Below are positions 2,295-11,315 of a stretch of 21,343 nucleotides of DNA, one piece after another. The notes under the pieces were generated by a model. The model did not search any database, was not told where the DNA came from, and saw only the letters and a list, made by a program, of their open reading frames with translations. Position numbers and translations under genes: made by a program. Position 1 is the first letter of the stretch, and every line of letters begins with the position of its first letter. This DNA comes from a virus. The stretch lies in the IMG/VR virus record IMGVR_UViG_3300035222_000011, positions 1 through 21,343 of that record; one strand, 5' to 3'.

Positions 2295-2304
2295 GATGAA
2301 TTAT

Positions 2305-3339
2305 ATGAAAAAATTATTATTATTATTAATTGCAACTTTATTTTTAGTAGGTTGTAATACAACAAAGAATTTTAAGAACGAAACAGAAACAGGTTTACTT
2401 AAACAAGTACAAGCAAGAGGTTATTTAATATGTGGAGTTAATGCAGGCTTACCTGGTTTCTCTGCTCAAGATGACGCAGGAAATTGGAGTGGTTTAGATG
2501 TAGATTTCTGTAAGGCAGTTGCAGCTGGTATATTTGGTGACGCAAGTAAAGTAGAATTTGTAGGTTTAAATGCAGCTCAAAGATTTCCAACATTAGCTTC
2601 TGGTAATATTGATTTACTTGCAAGAAATACCACTTGGACAATTAGTCGTGATGTTAACTTGATGTTTGAATTTGCAGGTGTTAATTATTATGACGGTCAA
2701 GGATTTTTAATACCAACTGATTTAGATATTAAGAGTGCAACAGAATTAGATGGTGCGTTTGTATGTATTACAGCAGAAACAACAAGTGAATTAAATTTAA
2801 ATGATTACTTTGCTGAAAATAATATGGCATATAAACCAATATATGTTGAAAATAACAAAGACGCAAAAGCAAAATTATTTGGTGGTGATTGTGATGTATT
2901 CACAACAGACGCCTCTGGTTTAGCAAGTGCTAGAGCAGGTGCAGACGACCCTAGTAAATGGATGGTGTTACCTGAAATTATATCAAAAGAACCATTAGGT
3001 CCACTTGTAAGACAAGGTGACCAAGAGTGGGAAGATGTAGTTAGATGGACACACTTCATTATGGTTAATGCTGAAGAAGCAGGTATCACAATGTATAATG
3101 TGGATATGATGTTAACTGCTAAGTCAAAAGAAATTAAAAGAATATTAGGTGTTGAAGGTTATATCGGTCCAATGTTAGGACTTGGTATGAAATTTGGTTA
3201 TAATATTATAAAACAAGTTGGTAATTACGGAGAATCATTTGATAGAAATGTAGGACCTAATACACCACTTAAATTAGAACGAGGATTAAATAATCTTTGG
3301 AAAAACGGTGGCGTTATGTATGTACCGCCAATAAGATAG
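2305..3339 (+). CDS. amino-acid ABC transporter solute-binding lipoprotein (AapJ/BztA-like)
   Basis: This is a family 3 periplasmic solute-binding protein (SBP_bac_3), the part of an ABC importer that captures amino acids. The 344-aa chain has a lipoprotein signal MKKLLLLLIATLFLVGC with lipobox cysteine 17. Motifs typical of general L-amino-acid binding proteins follow: CGVNAGLPGFS, GLDVDFCKAVAAGIFGD, SGNIDLLARNTTW, and C-terminal IIKQVGNYGESF and a PPIR end. Length matches a complete bacterial protein. I chose ATG 2305 over 2296 because AGGATG lies 6 nt before it. No permease or ATPase genes are present, so it would have to use host transporters or act alone. Acquisition from a host is the likely origin. 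Confidence 0.9.
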   Translation: MKKLLLLLIATLFLVGCNTTKNFKNETETGLLKQVQARGYLICGVNAGLPGFSAQDDAGNWSGLDVDFCKAVAAGIFGDASKVEFVGLNAAQRFPTLASGNIDLLARNTTWTISRDVNLMFEFAGVNYYDGQGFLIPTDLDIKSATELDGAFVCITAETTSELNLNDYFAENNMAYKPIYVENNKDAKAKLFGGDCDVFTTDASGLASARAGADDPSKWMVLPEIISKEPLGPLVRQGDQEWEDVVRWTHFIMVNAEEAGITMYNVDMMLTAKSKEIKRILGVEGYIGPMLGLGMKFGYNIIKQVGNYGESFDRNVGPNTPLKLERGLNNLWKNGGVMYVPPIR

Positions 3340-4360: not shown

Positions 4361-4648
4361 ATGGCACATATAACAGACGAACAACAAAGAAGTTTAGACG
4401 CAAGTTTTGAAGATGAGATAACTTCTCAAAGAACTGTCACAATTCCATTAAAAGAATATGATAAGTTAAGAGAAAAAAACCATTATATCACAGACAAATC
4501 TTTAATTGCTATCATAGATAAAATTGAAGAACTAGTTAGAGCAATGATAAAAATGAGAATACAAGATAAAGGTTTAAATGCTGTTGTAGATAAGACCGAA
4601 GAACTAGTAAGGGCATTAAGAAAGCATATTGTCAGAGAAGATATATAA
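4361..4648 (+). CDS. hypothetical protein with duplicated DK-x-EELVRA segment
   Basis: A 95-aa, charged, probably helical protein with no signal peptide. Its C-terminal half contains a repeat: IIDKIEELVRA (about residues 51-61) and VVDKTEELVRA (about 75-85), 24 residues apart, each followed by a basic stretch. The N-terminal half includes TVTIPLKEYDKLRE. The duplicated helix could form a coiled coil or helical hairpin for self-association. The gene lies 3 nt after the nuclease gene and behind a late-promoter box at 4330-4337, with GAGG upstream of the ATG. I do not recognise a family. Confidence 0.6.
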   Translation: MAHITDEQQRSLDASFEDEITSQRTVTIPLKEYDKLREKNHYITDKSLIAIIDKIEELVRAMIKMRIQDKGLNAVVDKTEELVRALRKHIVREDI

Positions 4649-4680: not shown

Positions 4681-4770
4681 ATGGAGAACGCCAGGATGAA
4701 TTACTATTTTACAGGAATATTAATTATTCTAATGATTCTACTTGCCCTTTTGGGAGGACCTCCAAGTTAA
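4681..4770 (+). CDS. tiny membrane protein (29 aa)
   Basis: ATG at 4681 opens a 29-codon frame, MENARMNYYFTGILIILMIL and onward, with a single hydrophobic helix ending in GGPPS. ATGAGGA lies upstream, and an in-frame ATG six codons in could be an alternative start. A late-promoter box precedes it. It resembles small phage membrane peptides in layout only; no function is known. Confidence 0.45.
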   Translation: MENARMNYYFTGILIILMILLALLGGPPS

Positions 4771-4780
4771 TTAAATAATT

Positions 4781-4998: not shown

Positions 4999-5006
4999 TA
5001 TAAATA
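4999..5006 (+). promoter_or_regulatory. T4-type late promoter before the curli-like operon
   Basis: An exact TATAAATA sits in the 85-nt gap 4943-5027, the clearest intergenic space in the first half of the window, with the first ATG 22 nt downstream. It would place the csgF-to-cyclase run under late, sliding-clamp-dependent transcription as in T4. No sigma70 -35/-10 pair was seen in the gap. Confidence 0.65.
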
Positions 5007-5027
5007 TTGGTGTAAAATAGAGGGAAT

Positions 5028-5492
5028 ATGAAAAAATTATCAATCATTTTAATAACATTATTGTTCTGTTCTAGTACCTATGCAAGTGAATTAGGTTTTA
5101 AATTTCACAGTCCATCATTTAGTGGAGTGGGAAAATCATCACACTATCTAACGATAGAGAACATAGAGAAGACTAGAAAAGACGCAATCAAAGCAGCTAA
5201 CAAAGCGGCAGCTGATAAACTAATAGCTGACGCAAAGGCAACTGCTGTTGCAAAATTCAAAGCAAATGTTGAAGCAAGATTTTATACAGCATTAGCAAAA
5301 CAACTTACAGATAACGTTTTTGGTACAGATGGTCTACAACAAGACTCTGGTACATTTACATCACCAGTTGGTGGTGAAGTGGTAACTTGGGCAACAACAA
5401 CTACAGGAACAAATGATACTGTAAGCGTAACTGTAACTGAATCAGATGGCACTGTAACAACATTTACTATGCCGAAGGAAGACAATTCGTAA
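5028..5492 (+). CDS. csgF: CsgF-like curli assembly factor
   Basis: CsgF is exported and plugs into the CsgG pore, where it helps present curli subunits at the surface. The 154-aa product has a signal peptide (about residues 1-20, cleavage near STYAS|E). The mature start LGFKFHSPSFSG matches the conserved CsgF N-terminus (F-x-F-x-x-P-x-F-x-G) that binds inside CsgG. The middle is unusually Ala/Lys-rich (about 50-85). The C-terminus, VSVTVTESDGTVTTFTMP, matches the CsgF beta end. AGAGGG precedes the ATG, and the stop overlaps the next start by one base. The Ala/Lys helix is longer than in E. coli CsgF. Identity is well supported by motif and by the neighbouring csgG. Confidence 0.85.
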   Translation: MKKLSIILITLLFCSSTYASELGFKFHSPSFSGVGKSSHYLTIENIEKTRKDAIKAANKAAADKLIADAKATAVAKFKANVEARFYTALAKQLTDNVFGTDGLQQDSGTFTSPVGGEVVTWATTTTGTNDTVSVTVTESDGTVTTFTMPKEDNS

Positions 5493-6478
5493 TGATAAGA
5501 ATATTATCAGTAATATTACTAACATTTTTGTTAGTTGGTTGTGCTGGTTCAAACAAAGTAAATTTTGATATAAGAACACAAAAGGTTGCTTATAAAGATT
5601 TAACAGAAATTAAGGCACCTAGTGGTGACCCTATTATAATTGCTGTCTATGACTTTGTTGATATGACTGGTCAAAAGAAACCAGGTGGTAACTTTGCCTC
5701 AATGAGTACAGCGGTTACTCAAGGATCATATCAGTTATTAATTAAAGCTTTACAAGACGCAGGTGATGGCAAATGGTTTAGAGTTGTAGAGAGAACAAGT
5801 TTACCAAGTCTATTACAAGAAAGAAAACTAATTAGGTCTACAAGACAACAAATTAATGGAGAAGGTGCAGAACCATTACCACCATTGTTATTCGCAGGTG
5901 CATATATCACAGGTGGTATAGTAGGTTATGATAGTGATATTAAATCTGGTGGATTAGGTGCAAGAGTATTAGGTATTCAAGCTAATAAACAATACAGACA
6001 AGATATTGTTACAGTTATATTAAGATTGGTTAATGTACAAACAGGTGAGGTAGTTATAGTAACTACTATTGAAAAGACTATAGTTTCTACAGCTTTTGGA
6101 TCAGATGTATTTAAATATTTTGATACAGATACAATGTTAGTAGAGATTGAAGCTGGTTATGCTAGAAACGAACCAGTGACCTTTGCAATAAGAAAAGCAA
6201 TTGAAAAAGGTGTAGTAGATTTAATACACAAAGGTATTATAAAAGATTTATGGGCATATAAAATAGAAGAAGTAACAATACCAGAGATTAAAGATTATAT
6301 AGATCATACAAATGATGTTGAAATAGGTGTACATGTGGATATAGGTGAGAAGAAAAAAGAGAAAACCTATGAAGATTATCTTAAACAAAAAGAAGAATTA
6401 AAAAAATTAGAACAAGAGGAGAATACAGATGAGAAAAATAATGATGTCAATAGTGATTCTTCTAGCGACACTAACTAA
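5492..6478 (+). CDS. csgG: CsgG-like curli secretion channel lipoprotein
   Basis: CsgG forms a nonameric outer-membrane pore that exports unfolded curli subunits. The 328-aa product has a lipobox ending in Cys17 (LLVGC). Family-typical blocks follow: YKDLT (34-38), AVYDFVDMTGQKKP (51-64), WFRVVERTSLPSLLQERKLIR (about 95-115), GYDSDIKSGGLGAR (145-158), RLVNVQTGEV (178-187) and NEPVTFAIRKAIEKG (226-240). The constriction loop keeps Asn67-Phe68, matching E. coli Asn55-Phe56, but is shorter and lacks the Tyr51 equivalent. About 60 extra acidic/lysine-rich residues (266-328) extend beyond the usual end. AAGGAAG lies about 10 nt before the ATG. The 3' end overlaps the next gene by 50 nt. Confidence 0.93.
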   Translation: MIRILSVILLTFLLVGCAGSNKVNFDIRTQKVAYKDLTEIKAPSGDPIIIAVYDFVDMTGQKKPGGNFASMSTAVTQGSYQLLIKALQDAGDGKWFRVVERTSLPSLLQERKLIRSTRQQINGEGAEPLPPLLFAGAYITGGIVGYDSDIKSGGLGARVLGIQANKQYRQDIVTVILRLVNVQTGEVVIVTTIEKTIVSTAFGSDVFKYFDTDTMLVEIEAGYARNEPVTFAIRKAIEKGVVDLIHKGIIKDLWAYKIEEVTIPEIKDYIDHTNDVEIGVHVDIGEKKKEKTYEDYLKQKEELKKLEQEENTDEKNNDVNSDSSSDTN

Positions 6479-7520
6479 CAGTTTCGCAGGCAATTCCGTT
6501 TGGATTCAACAAGACAACCAAGATAGCGACGGATCAATTTTTATCAAACAAGATGGTACTGGTAATACAGTAGGGTATTCTACATCTTATCCATTTAAAG
6601 TAGATGGAGAGAACATCACAATCATTATTAAACAAATAGGTAATAATAACGTAACAGATTATTCAAATCACGTGAGTTTTAAAGGTGAGAATATGACTTT
6701 AGATTATACAGCAACTGGTGATGGTAATAAATTAAGAATAGATAGTGATGATACGGATGCTACTGGACATTATTTAGACCACGATATTACAGGTAACTTA
6801 AACGTAGTAGATTATGATACTTGGGCAAATGATACAGCAAATTTCAATGTTGATTTAGATATTACAGGTGACTCAAATACTTTTTGGGTAAGAAATAAAG
6901 GTGATAATCACTTCTTATATGTTCTTATGTCAGGTGATTCAAATGATGTACAATTTTATGGTACAACTGATTCAGTAGGATTTAATACAAACTCTAACAA
7001 GGCTATTGGTCCACAAACAACATCACATGGACAATTTGCAGATAGTTCAGGTAGTGAAGGCGCTACAGCAGACATTTATATTATTGGGAATTCCAATAGA
7101 TTACATACTTCATCATACGGTACAGGTAACTATCAACTCCACGATATTATAGGTAGTTCAAATATTTTAGATATTCACTCTAGTTATACTAGTGCCGATA
7201 CTGATCCATATGGAGATACAATGTTGATATTAGGTGACGGTAACTATTTAAGAACATACATATCTGGAGATAGTAATACAATAAGATTACATATGGCAGG
7301 TGGAAATAATACTGCCAAGATTTATCTTTATACAGATGGTTCGGTAATAAATTTTGACCAAACAGGTGGTGGTAACACAGGTCAAGTTACCATATCAGGT
7401 GATTCAATTTACGATTACACATTAAACTTTGCACAAAACGGTTCAGATTCTTGTACCTATTCATTTAATAGAAACACACAATCAGCTGATGTTACGGCTA
7501 CGGTTTCCAATGGATGTTAA
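6429..7520 (+). CDS. secreted curlin-like repeat protein (candidate CsgG cargo)
   Basis: A 363-aa protein with a signal peptide cleaved near NSFA20|G. The mature chain is almost wholly built of curlin-like repeats: about 12 G-x-x-N turns starting at Gly43, 71, 97, 122, 147, 169, 220, 242, 269, 280, 291 and 313, spaced mostly 22-28 residues apart. The repeats at 39-46, 69-74 and 311-316 keep the Gln of the curlin Q-x-G-x-x-N motif; most others have Ile or another hydrophobic there. This predicts a beta-solenoid or amyloid-forming fibre subunit. Two C-terminal cysteines (342, 363) could close the last turn. AGAGGAG inside csgG gives the start. It is longer and more degenerate than CsgA. Cargo status is inferred from adjacency. 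Confidence 0.8.
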   Translation: MRKIMMSIVILLATLTNSFAGNSVWIQQDNQDSDGSIFIKQDGTGNTVGYSTSYPFKVDGENITIIIKQIGNNNVTDYSNHVSFKGENMTLDYTATGDGNKLRIDSDDTDATGHYLDHDITGNLNVVDYDTWANDTANFNVDLDITGDSNTFWVRNKGDNHFLYVLMSGDSNDVQFYGTTDSVGFNTNSNKAIGPQTTSHGQFADSSGSEGATADIYIIGNSNRLHTSSYGTGNYQLHDIIGSSNILDIHSSYTSADTDPYGDTMLILGDGNYLRTYISGDSNTIRLHMAGGNNTAKIYLYTDGSVINFDQTGGGNTGQVTISGDSIYDYTLNFAQNGSDSCTYSFNRNTQSADVTATVSNGC

Positions 7521-9673
7521 AAATGAAAAGAATTTTATTTTTTATTACCTTTCTGGTACTTTTCTGTACTAGTATTTCATCATCACAAATAACAAGTCCT
7601 AAAGTTGGCGAAGTCATAGGCCAAATGGGTACTACTTGGAACGAAAGAGAAGGAGAAACTCAAAATACAGCAATGGGTTATGAGTTGCAGATGAACGATT
7701 TCCTCCAAACTGGTGAAGATGGTGGTATGATTATTCATTACCTTGATAATACTAAATTTACAATGGGACCAAATACAGAATTAATAATTGATGAGTTTGC
7801 TTTTGATACATCGGTTGTACCAATTGAATTGGCAATGAACATATCAGTTAACGTTGGTACATTTACATATGAATCAGGACAGGTATCTAATTTAGGTGGT
7901 GAAGTTAACATCAATGCTGGATTTGCCTCAATTACAGTACAAGGTACTGCCTTTTCAGGAACAGTTGACACTAGTGGTGAGGTTACAATTACCTTACTAC
8001 CAGATAGTGATGGTGCAGTAGGGTCGGTAACGGTCTCCAATGACGCAGGTTCTCAAACAATAACTAACGCTTACAATTCAGTGACAGTTGTATCAAACGA
8101 CTTAACACCAACTCCTCCAAAGATAGAGACTAATAAGTCAGACATTATTGAGTTAGATGAATTTGAAGATGAAATTAAAGAAGATACAGCAAAACATTTT
8201 GGTGATATAGATTCAAAATCTGAAATGTCTAAAGACGAACAAGAAGCACAAGAAATGGAAGAGGCTTTAATTAATGAAGAAGCAAGTATAGTAGAAGATA
8301 GTAATACAATTGTTGGTACAGATTTATCTTCTAGTGAAGCAGATACAATGATTGAAACAAAATCAGCAGAAGAAAATACTTTAGTTGAAGTAGAAGAAGT
8401 TGATACATCTTATTATGATTCTTGGGAAGATGATTTAAAAGATTGGGGTTATATAGATGAAGACAACCAGATTTCAGTTTGGGATGCCGAAGGTGAGCAA
8501 ACTATGGATTGGGATGACGCAAAGAAAATGTATGCAGAAATGGATCAAGCATACTTTGACGCTATTGGTTGTTCAGATTGTACCTGGGATACTATTGATT
8601 GGGATACTATTGATTGGGACGCTGTAGATTGGGACGAATATTCGGACAAGTATAATGATCTATTAGAAGACTATGGTTTAACTTCTTGGAATGTTGATGT
8701 AGATGAACAAGATGTTGTTGAAGATACAAAAGATGAAACAGAAGCAACTACAGTTGAAGGATATACTTGGGAAGATTTTGCTTTAGATGATGACTACTAT
8801 AACAATGCAGAATACAAAAACCAAGGTGGACCTCCAACATTAACTGTACAAAACTATTGTGAGTACAATGGTTACGAAGACTATTGGTGTAACCAAGATT
8901 ATGTTGATTATCTAAATGACTGGTACAAAGATGATTGGACTTTAAAAGTAACTAACGATAGTTGGACTAAAGAATCAAAAGAGATATGGGGTAAATTATA
9001 TGGTTGGTGTGGATCGTGGCCAAACTATAAGATGTGTGATAACCAACCTAAACCTTGGAAGATGAAAGACTTAAAGAAGACTTACATAACTGATTGGGAG
9101 TGGGCAGATTGGGACATATATTGGGACGCCGTGTATGATTGGTGGTATACAGGTTACGATTACAATAATGAAGATGATGAGTCTAATTGGGAAGATGAGT
9201 ATGATTTTGAAGATAACTATGACATAGACGCAGAATTAGAATTGTTATTAGCAAGTTATGATAAAGAAGATTGTTTAAATTATGGATACTATTGGGACAA
9301 TGCTCAATCAAGTTGTGGTACGGAGTGGGTTGATAATAGTGGTTCAGAAACGCAAGTAACTGCTAGTGGTGAAGTTTTAAATTATAGTACTGGAGATGTA
9401 ACTCAAACCTTAACTACAACAAGTGGTGGTGTGTCAACAAGTATTACTTCTACAGGAAGAGTATCAACGTTAGATAACGACTTTAACGCAACTGCCTCAA
9501 CGTCTGGTGATTACACAATATTAAATAGATACAACGACAATCATAGAGCTTATGTAAAAACTGAAACTAGTAAAGAGGCAGACATACAGATTTTACAAGA
9601 TACTGAAGCACAACACCTTGATGTAGGTAGCAGCTCTACTCAAAACAATATCACAATCATTCAAACGGACTAA
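7514..9673 (+). CDS. FecR-domain secreted protein with Asp/Trp/Tyr-rich region (719 aa)
   Basis: A signal peptide (about residues 1-24) is followed by a FecR domain (about 30-105: VGEVIGQMGTTW, ELQMNDFLQTGEDGG, TMGPNTELIIDEF). A beta region includes GFASITVQGTAFSGTVD and a GAVGSVTVSNDAG segment. FecR domains occur in signalling and surface proteins. Residues about 210-290 are Glu-rich and likely disordered. Residues about 300-580 are strikingly rich in Asp, Trp and Tyr, including tandem WDTID units at 358-372. The last 110 residues are Thr/Ser/Gly-rich and beta-like. Start 7514 overlaps the curlin-like gene by 7 nt; 7523 (MKRILFF) is equally plausible. Neither has a clear ribosome-binding site, suggesting coupling. 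It may be a second exported or surface protein. Confidence 0.82.
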   Translation: MLKMKRILFFITFLVLFCTSISSSQITSPKVGEVIGQMGTTWNEREGETQNTAMGYELQMNDFLQTGEDGGMIIHYLDNTKFTMGPNTELIIDEFAFDTSVVPIELAMNISVNVGTFTYESGQVSNLGGEVNINAGFASITVQGTAFSGTVDTSGEVTITLLPDSDGAVGSVTVSNDAGSQTITNAYNSVTVVSNDLTPTPPKIETNKSDIIELDEFEDEIKEDTAKHFGDIDSKSEMSKDEQEAQEMEEALINEEASIVEDSNTIVGTDLSSSEADTMIETKSAEENTLVEVEEVDTSYYDSWEDDLKDWGYIDEDNQISVWDAEGEQTMDWDDAKKMYAEMDQAYFDAIGCSDCTWDTIDWDTIDWDAVDWDEYSDKYNDLLEDYGLTSWNVDVDEQDVVEDTKDETEATTVEGYTWEDFALDDDYYNNAEYKNQGGPPTLTVQNYCEYNGYEDYWCNQDYVDYLNDWYKDDWTLKVTNDSWTKESKEIWGKLYGWCGSWPNYKMCDNQPKPWKMKDLKKTYITDWEWADWDIYWDAVYDWWYTGYDYNNEDDESNWEDEYDFEDNYDIDAELELLLASYDKEDCLNYGYYWDNAQSSCGTEWVDNSGSETQVTASGEVLNYSTGDVTQTLTTTSGGVSTSITSTGRVSTLDNDFNATASTSGDYTILNRYNDNHRAYVKTETSKEADIQILQDTEAQHLDVGSSSTQNNITIIQTD
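8585..8644 (+). repeat. tandem 15-bp repeats in the FecR-domain gene
   Basis: Four consecutive 15-bp units start TGGGA: two identical TGGGATACTATTGAT copies (8585-8599, 8600-8614), then diverged TGGGACGCTGTAGAT (8615-8629) and TGGGACGAATATTCG (8630-8644). They encode W-D-x-x-D type pentapeptides in frame, so the array may expand or contract by slippage without breaking the gene. Confidence 0.85.
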
Positions 9674-9680
9674 ATATGAT

Positions 9681-11315
9681 ATGACTAAATTTACTTCCAT
9701 TTGGGCAGTAATAGTAAGTGTATTAATACTATTAGGATTAAAATTATATAATCCAGTACCTTTACAAACCCTCCAACTAAAGACCTTTGATCTATATCAA
9801 ACACTTGGCGATAACTATGAGTCTAAAAGTCTTGTGTTGTTAGATATATCAAATGAAGCATTAAAGAAACAAGGTCAATGGCCTTGGAAGAGAGACATAT
9901 TAGGTCGTACTATCATCAATGCATATAAAAATGGTGCAGCTCTAGTATTTTTGAACGTAGTATTTGTTCACAAAGATAGGCTAGGTGGTGATGAAATGTT
10001 TTTGAAGATGATCTCAAAGTATCCAGTTATTCTAACTGAAACAAGTACAGCTAAGAACTTAAAGAGTATTGAAAGGAAATCTCTCGCTATCGCTAACGTG
10101 GAAGTGAAAGTGGGCGTTGACTCTGTTATACGAATTTTATCCTTGGATAATTCCGTGCCGGAAAAGATTTTATCCATAATCAAGTTTCCAATACCTGACC
10201 AAGATAGTATATGGATTGATTTCAGACATAGAATACCTAGAATAGATTATACAGATAAAGATTGGTCATCTATGAAAGGTAAGATAGTATTCATAGGTGC
10301 TACATTTGATGGTTCCACTTTTGTACTTACACCTAATGGTTTAAAGAACACACACGAAATAGCGGCCTTGTCAACAGAAACTTTATTATCAGGTGAGTAT
10401 ATAAAAAGACCTGATTGGGCACCTATGGCAGAATGGATTGCTTTATTATTAACATTAGGTTTCTTTTTAATAGTTTTACCTAGAGTTGACTTATTTTGGT
10501 CAGCCGCAATTTTAGTCGGTTTTTATTTTGATTTAGCACTTACAAGTGGTTATCTATGGCAAAAACATATGATACTTACAGATTGGTCATCAATCGCAGT
10601 AATAGGAAGTATAGTATGGGCACACTTGATATACAATAACTTTGCAAGAGAGAATAGATTAAAATTACAAATCAAAAAACAATTTGAACATTACCTAGCA
10701 CCAGATATGGTTAAGAAGTTGCAGAAAAATCCTGAACTTTTAAAATTAGGTGGTGATACAAGAGATATGACTTTTTTATTTTGTGACATAAGAGGATTTA
10801 CTCCTATTTCAGAAAAATTTCAATCTGATCCACAAGGTCTTACAAAAGTTATAAATAAATTTTTAACACCCATGACAAACATTATAATGAAAAATGGTGG
10901 TACTATTGATAAGTACATGGGCGATTGTATTATGGCATTTTGGAATGCTCCAATACAACAACATAATCATAGATCACTTGCAGTTAACTCGGCATGTGAA
11001 ATGATGAACAAATTAAAAGAATTAAATGACAGTGATAGTTTTGGTCCAGATATTAAGATAAACATCGGCATAGGAATAAATTCAGGTCCTGCTGTAGTTG
11101 GTAATATGGGATCAGATCAACGTTTTGATTATTCTGTTTTAGGTGACGCCGTTAATCTTGCAAGTAGATTAGAAGGTGTAAGTAAAAATTATGACGCAAC
11201 ATTAATTGTAGGTTATGATACATACAGAATGCTAAGATCAAAATACGATTGGAAGAAATTAGATATGGTTAAAGTTAAAGGCAAATCTAATATGGTATCT
11301 ATCTACACAATTTAG
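9681..11315 (+). CDS. CHASE2-domain class III adenylate/guanylate cyclase
   Basis: A 544-aa membrane sensor predicted to make a cyclic nucleotide, probably cAMP. It has an N-terminal helix (about 5-22), an extracytoplasmic CHASE2 domain (about 30-240; LLDISNEAL and GQWPWKRD are typical), three helices (about 250-267, 272-290, 302-319) and a class III catalytic domain (about 360-544). Metal aspartates Asp369 (CDIRGFT) and Asp415 (KYMGD), substrate residues Lys411 and Asp483 (RFDYSVLGD), and transition-state Asn492 and Arg496 (NLASRLE) are all present, so activity is likely. Lys plus Asp favours ATP over GTP. The gene lies 7 nt after the FecR gene. Cyclases are rare in phages. The CHASE2 ligand is unknown. 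Confidence 0.93.
   Translation: MTKFTSIWAVIVSVLILLGLKLYNPVPLQTLQLKTFDLYQTLGDNYESKSLVLLDISNEALKKQGQWPWKRDILGRTIINAYKNGAALVFLNVVFVHKDRLGGDEMFLKMISKYPVILTETSTAKNLKSIERKSLAIANVEVKVGVDSVIRILSLDNSVPEKILSIIKFPIPDQDSIWIDFRHRIPRIDYTDKDWSSMKGKIVFIGATFDGSTFVLTPNGLKNTHEIAALSTETLLSGEYIKRPDWAPMAEWIALLLTLGFFLIVLPRVDLFWSAAILVGFYFDLALTSGYLWQKHMILTDWSSIAVIGSIVWAHLIYNNFARENRLKLQIKKQFEHYLAPDMVKKLQKNPELLKLGGDTRDMTFLFCDIRGFTPISEKFQSDPQGLTKVINKFLTPMTNIIMKNGGTIDKYMGDCIMAFWNAPIQQHNHRSLAVNSACEMMNKLKELNDSDSFGPDIKINIGIGINSGPAVVGNMGSDQRFDYSVLGDAVNLASRLEGVSKNYDATLIVGYDTYRMLRSKYDWKKLDMVKVKGKSNMVSIYTI

Follow-up and report, generated by a model that had tools for sequence, protein, structure and literature searches.

Genes and late promoter of the curli locus

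The window, i.e. the whole stretch of DNA analyzed here, is the 21,343-base IMG/VR virus record IMGVR_UViG_3300035222_000011. Five consecutive + strand genes (csgF, csgG, a curlin-type cargo gene, a FecR-domain gene and an adenylate cyclase gene) occupy positions 5028-11315 and either overlap or are separated by very short gaps. The end of csgF and the start of csgG share 1 nt (position 5492) while the end of csgG (6478) and the start of the cargo gene (6429) overlap by 50 nt. The original prediction, made from the letters alone, had described these reading frames and overlaps as one curli-type export unit, an observation that was confirmed as a whole. Two isolates share this gene order, as do those IMG/VR relatives whose loci extend far enough; the cyclase gene is located upstream of csgF on the opposite strand in about half of the relatives.

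CsgF (5028..5492, +) has an N-terminal signal sequence, matches PF10614 above the cut-off (E 1.5e-8) and carries the FxFxxPxF motif which lines CsgG in E. coli, where a 27-residue N-terminal stretch of CsgF lines the lumen of CsgG (PMC7304575). Residues P29, F31, G33, S37, H39 and L41 are invariant across the phage and bacterial rows of the alignment. The csgG gene (5492..6478, +) encodes an outer-membrane lipoprotein pore with lipobox LVGC that matches PF03783 (E 1e-50) and E. coli CsgG chains (E 8e-48). The original prediction had been made to depend on a CsgG-fold match for this frame, and the match is strong. The window CsgG has an extra charged C-terminal tail of ~70 residues, missing in HTVC008M and Melnitz, and aligns G, S and M to the E. 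coli eyelet residues Tyr66, Asn70 and Phe71. A widened eyelet as a phage trait was considered and rejected, as the few readable alphaproteobacterial loops likewise differ from E. coli. No PF10627 match indicative of CsgE was obtained in the window, the contigs of eight longer relatives or two complete phage genomes. The CsgE periplasmic gate is not universal in type VIII secretion systems.

A T4-type late promoter, TATAAATA, is located at 4999..5006 (+), 29 nt upstream of csgF. Judging it by raw count was dropped because the window contains no more occurrences than chance predicts (5 observed vs 5.4), and positional conservation was used instead. The motif precedes csgF at close range in 31 of 35 IMG/VR relatives, with ~1% expected per locus, and in most of these 31 it is found 26-32 nt ahead of the annotated csgF start. 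Since Pelagibacter phage Mosig EXVC030M additionally carries an annotated late-transcription sigma factor, late expression of the csg operon is well supported at the sequence level, and the earlier promoter call holds in spite of the chance-level count. We found no mention of a conserved late promoter in the pelagiphage curli papers searched.

Exported cargo and sensory proteins

The 363 aa cargo (6429..7520, +) consists of a signal sequence followed by beta-repeats. No convincing Pfam match was found for the window protein itself. The NCBIfam CsgA model matches 16/16 cargo homologues (best E 6.7e-8; window E 1.8e-4, at 21.5 bits far under the model cut-off of 160) and Pfam Curlin_rpt matches 8/16 (best E 6.8e-7). 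Together with the PF10614, PF03783 and E. coli CsgG matches, this bears out the CsgF-like, CsgG-like and curlin-repeat identities originally assigned. The accompanying statement that neither CsgE nor CsgB is seen stood for CsgE, as judged by profile search of the window and relatives, and is less secure for CsgB, as a CsgB model also matches 4 of the 16 cargo homologues. Profile comparison of the cargo with HTVC008M-type curlins gave a probability of 99%, and the sole PDB match of the cargo profile is 8enq, a major curlin subunit (E 0.02). Thirteen G..N turns were counted vs 4.1 in shuffles, with a commonest spacing of 22-26 residues. An AF2 model of medium confidence is all-beta (pTM 0.72, pLDDT 68.7), and its top matches in BFVD, which holds predicted viral protein structures, are labeled 'Curlin associated'. 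The locus thus encodes a curlin-repeat substrate with a signal peptide, as is characteristic of type VIII secretion, although the window member itself is a weak one.

The FecR-domain protein (7514..9673, +; a start at 7523 is possible instead) begins with a signal sequence, followed by a FecR domain (64-160) and an acidic W/D-rich middle, and is ~715 aa long in the window's subclade. The PF04773 match is weak in the window protein (0.013) and reaches 3.4e-8 in a homologue. A hydrophobic segment is found at the N-terminus only. Among 16 FecR homologues, no anti-sigma domain was matched, with Pfam returning the FecR domain only plus two stray weak hits, and the combination of cytoplasmic anti-sigma part and transmembrane helix that defines FecI/FecR-type sigma regulators was not found in the protein. 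Based on the signal sequence, the lack of another hydrophobic segment and the missing anti-sigma match, the published reading as an iron-dependent regulator seems doubtful.

The C-terminal strand of this protein, NNITIIQTD, resembles the ends of short bacterial curlins, e.g. ITITQTAH. The motif is present in 25/25 phage copies with an intact C-terminus, many of them closely related, and in 3/612 other phage ORFs; a 26th entry covers only the N-terminal half of its gene. In that locus (L015, 5260-7397), the FecR gene is split by a frameshift that is either real or an assembly error. The curlin-like end also occurs in the diverged lineages HTVC008M, Melnitz, L039, L074, L083 and L097; it is missing in L040, whose sequence holds ambiguous bases, and in all 15 alphaproteobacterial FecR partners of CHASE2 genes, a few of which have uncertain frames. 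Because hhalign of the FecR tail against curlin profiles gave no support, we treat the likeness to curlins as a motif-level lead. The AF2 model of the FecR protein has a pLDDT of 49.5 and a pTM of 0.23. A curlin-ended FecR protein that seems exported and lacks an anti-sigma match was not encountered in the papers searched.

The last gene (9681..11315, +) encodes a CHASE2 sensor (PF05226, E 2.7e-23) with a class III adenylate cyclase (PF00211, E 1.5e-22). Residues D369, K411, D415 and R496 are invariant in the alignment, and D483 and N492 nearly so, with a different residue at D483 in Melnitz. From established knowledge of class III cyclases, we take these to be the metal, transition-state and adenine-specific residues; they are kept in the window's clade, and the window cyclase thus combines a CHASE2 domain with catalytic residues of adenine specificity. 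By parsimony, four changes are needed to explain the position of the gene, two of them forced by the starred branches, and the cyclase has been kept despite at least two relocations, no sufficiently long locus being without it.

In 14 alphaproteobacterial genomes, a FecR gene was found within 5 kb of 16/32 CHASE2 genes vs 0.33 expected. The main csgG of these genomes is never accompanied by a FecR gene within 10 kb; in one of them, a CHASE2 gene lies at a distance of about 10 kb. The FecR-CHASE2 pair has been published for the BiofilmReg operon of Burkholderia (PMC5192318) and for cAMP clusters of Campylobacterota (PMC9239204). FecR-CHASE2 would then be a general alphaproteobacterial pair, which we did not find stated in the papers searched, and the phages can reasonably be read as having combined curli export with a FecR-CHASE2 sensor; we found no mention of CHASE2 in PMC9599517. 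No PF00027 (cAMP receptor) protein was found in the phages, and only 8/81 Pelagibacter-genus genomes have one, in an 870-aa frame. We did not find this lack of a canonical cAMP receptor in the phages and most Pelagibacter genomes reported in the papers searched.

Known systems, phylogeny and genomic site

Curli operons have been published for pelagimyophages (PMC7029224, 2020) and for Melnitz, with a lysis hypothesis (PMC9004378, 2022). Wittmers et al. 2022 (PMC9599517) reported the full pelagiphage module, with CsgA/B, FecR and adenylate cyclase, and described how it is expressed, that it has spread between phage families and that it occurs widely in the surface ocean. Roles proposed in print are uptake, sibling capture and superinfection defence (PMC7029224, PMC9599517). 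The original interpretation therefore survives in part: the evidence supports late curli-type export with a dedicated cargo and a signalling pair, but not the claimed advance over known systems, as PMC9599517 reports both cargo and pair and HTVC008M and Melnitz carry the set. The system is already known, and the window is, by sequence, a distinct subclade relative to HTVC008M and Melnitz, with extra anatomy.

HTVC008M (gp014-gp019) and Melnitz (gp99-gp104) are arranged as csgF-csgG-curlin-fecR-curlin2-cyclase. With this pelagiphage T8SS module (PMC9599517; HTVC008M; Melnitz), the window shares the csgF-csgG-curlin-fecR-cyclase order, the lack of CsgE and an occurrence in marine phages near SAR11 and OM43 isolates. 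In contrast to HTVC008M and Melnitz, where the FecR protein has ~370 residues, that of the window has ~715, and the window's subclade lacks the second curlin gene, has the CsgG C-terminal tail and shows the inverted upstream cyclase in about half of its members. The second curlin protein of HTVC008M (L037, 10638-11963) has a PA14 domain before its curlin repeats. HTVC008M and Melnitz also have two small genes ahead of csgF, where PMC9599517 reports a histidine kinase. Among the 53-127 aa genes that precede csgF in the window, L083, HTVC008M and Melnitz, none matched a Pfam kinase model (HisKA/HATPase); we did not find this noted in the papers searched. The labels 'iron regulator' and 'histidine kinase' given in print thus seem due for re-checking.

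Alphaproteobacterial csg operons (Sphingomonas, Roseovarius, Azospirillum) likewise consist of csgF-csgG followed by curlin-repeat genes, but usually contain several curlin genes with classical repeats, and no FecR or CHASE2 cyclase gene was found directly beside csgG outside phage-like contigs. Bacterial FecR + CHASE2 pairs (PMC5192318, PMC9239204) are similar in that an exported FecR protein adjoins a CHASE2 receptor, whereas curli genes are missing. The E. coli csgBAC/csgDEFG system shares the CsgG pore, the CsgF adaptor and a CsgA-like cargo; it differs in that no CsgE was found in the phage, where the cargo repeat is degenerate.

A 100/98 branch has on one side the CsgG proteins of the phages together with those of phage-like contigs from bacterial bins, and the window's clade (24 rows) forms a tight group on a long branch. 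Of 81 Pelagibacter-genus genomes, just one encodes CsgG, on a 3-kb contig, and this copy groups within the phage clade. Nine loci (L097, L039, L040, L046, L048, L074, L083, L102, L111) stem from bacterial genome bins yet lie inside the phage clade and are probably wrongly binned phage contigs. Bacterial operons combining csg with FecR and cyclase were considered as well and discarded, since both genes are present only in L039, L040, L083 and L097, all in the phage CsgG clade; L046 and L074, which are cut short, also belong there. Based on this placement and the 142-kb contig of L097, these six loci are read as binned phage contigs. OR851715.1, a 1.5-kb record named Salmonella phage, contains csgG and is perhaps host DNA.

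Among annotated phages, the T4-like, 141-kb Mosig is the isolate closest to the window (identity of 81% for nrdA and 63% for primase). We infer a Pelagibacter-like host with caution, as Mosig is only the nearest isolate and is absent from the csgG search matches. At the syntenic site upstream of primase, Mosig encodes two other signal-peptide proteins (L136, 9548-12213), so the site is variable and may serve as a cassette site for exported proteins. No riboswitch, RNA family or tRNA was found in the window. A 53-aa holin-like gene (341-502) and an overlapping i-spanin/lipoprotein o-spanin pair (509-973 and 903-1292) are followed by an amino-acid-binding lipoprotein gene (2296-3339; SBP_bac_3 E 1.3e-13; TIGR01096 E 5e-46, below cut-off), which is confined to a few of the closest relatives. 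An ORF for a 29-aa membrane miniprotein (4682-4771) lies behind another TATAAATA at 4644.

Proposed function and alternatives

The locus probably represents a phage-borne type VIII (curli) secretion module that combines late fibre export with a periplasmic FecR-CHASE2 sensing branch. This pelagiphage-type module would be turned on late in infection, and the cargo would pass unfolded through the pore to form a fibre or coat of beta-repeats at the cell surface or in the lysate, making cells or debris stick together or keeping competing phages off. The FecR protein would be a periplasmic or exported partner rather than a sigma regulator, with its curlin-like end positioned to contact cargo or fibre and its FecR domain positioned to signal to the cyclase through CHASE2. 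We tentatively suggest that it may belong to the fibre system proper, either as a nucleator replacing CsgB or as a sensor of unsecreted or assembled curlin that reports to the CHASE2 cyclase. If the sensor version were true, the virus would possess a feedback circuit measuring its own protein export.

The homology of CsgF, CsgG and cargo, the kept CsgF-CsgG interface motif, the gene order and the late promoter all argue for the export module, as do the retention of the cyclase, the FecR-CHASE2 proximity with its published clusters and the single phage-side CsgG clade (100/98). Counting against it are the lack of clumping in Melnitz cultures (PMC9004378), a cargo without many of the glutamines of classical curlin repeats, the medium-confidence cargo model, the motif-only FecR tail and the scarcity of cAMP receptors (PF00027). 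The late promoter, the curlin-ended FecR protein and the FecR-CHASE2 pairing make timing, exported product and cyclase signal testable parts.

Blocking of superinfection through a changed surface of the infected cell, rather than aggregation, was suggested in PMC9599517 and seems unlikely as the main role; late expression would leave time for late-arriving competitors only, and sequence data do not separate this role from aggregation. A CsgG-CsgF pore that governs lysis or its timing in a pinholin-like or secretin-like manner, with the cargo being secondary, is rather unlikely. Such a role was proposed for Melnitz (PMC9004378) and would fit the late promoter and the spanin pair found near the module in 20 loci of the window's clade, often with a holin-like gene, but the HTVC008M module sits between the single-stranded DNA-binding protein region and tail genes, no lysis genes are annotated in the stretch read around it, and the conserved curlin cargo, FecR and cyclase genes would be left unexplained.

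An ungated pore admitting nutrients or cofactors to the periplasm during infection is quite improbable as well. The lack of a CsgE gatekeeper, the G, S, M eyelet and the amino-acid-binding lipoprotein encoded upstream are consistent with it, whereas CsgF, which adds a second channel constriction, and the cargo are retained in all loci of sufficient length, the eyelet change is not specific to phages and the binding protein has such a narrow distribution. A virion fibre or tail-associated role of the 6429-7520 product, in place of export, is highly improbable; such a role was a condition under which the original prediction had been ready to yield. A tail fibre was considered due to a weak fold resemblance to beta-helix tailspikes and rejected, none of these matches being significant; the N-terminal signal sequence, the curlin family and BFVD matches and the overlap of the cargo gene with csgG within one operon point to an exported curlin relative instead.
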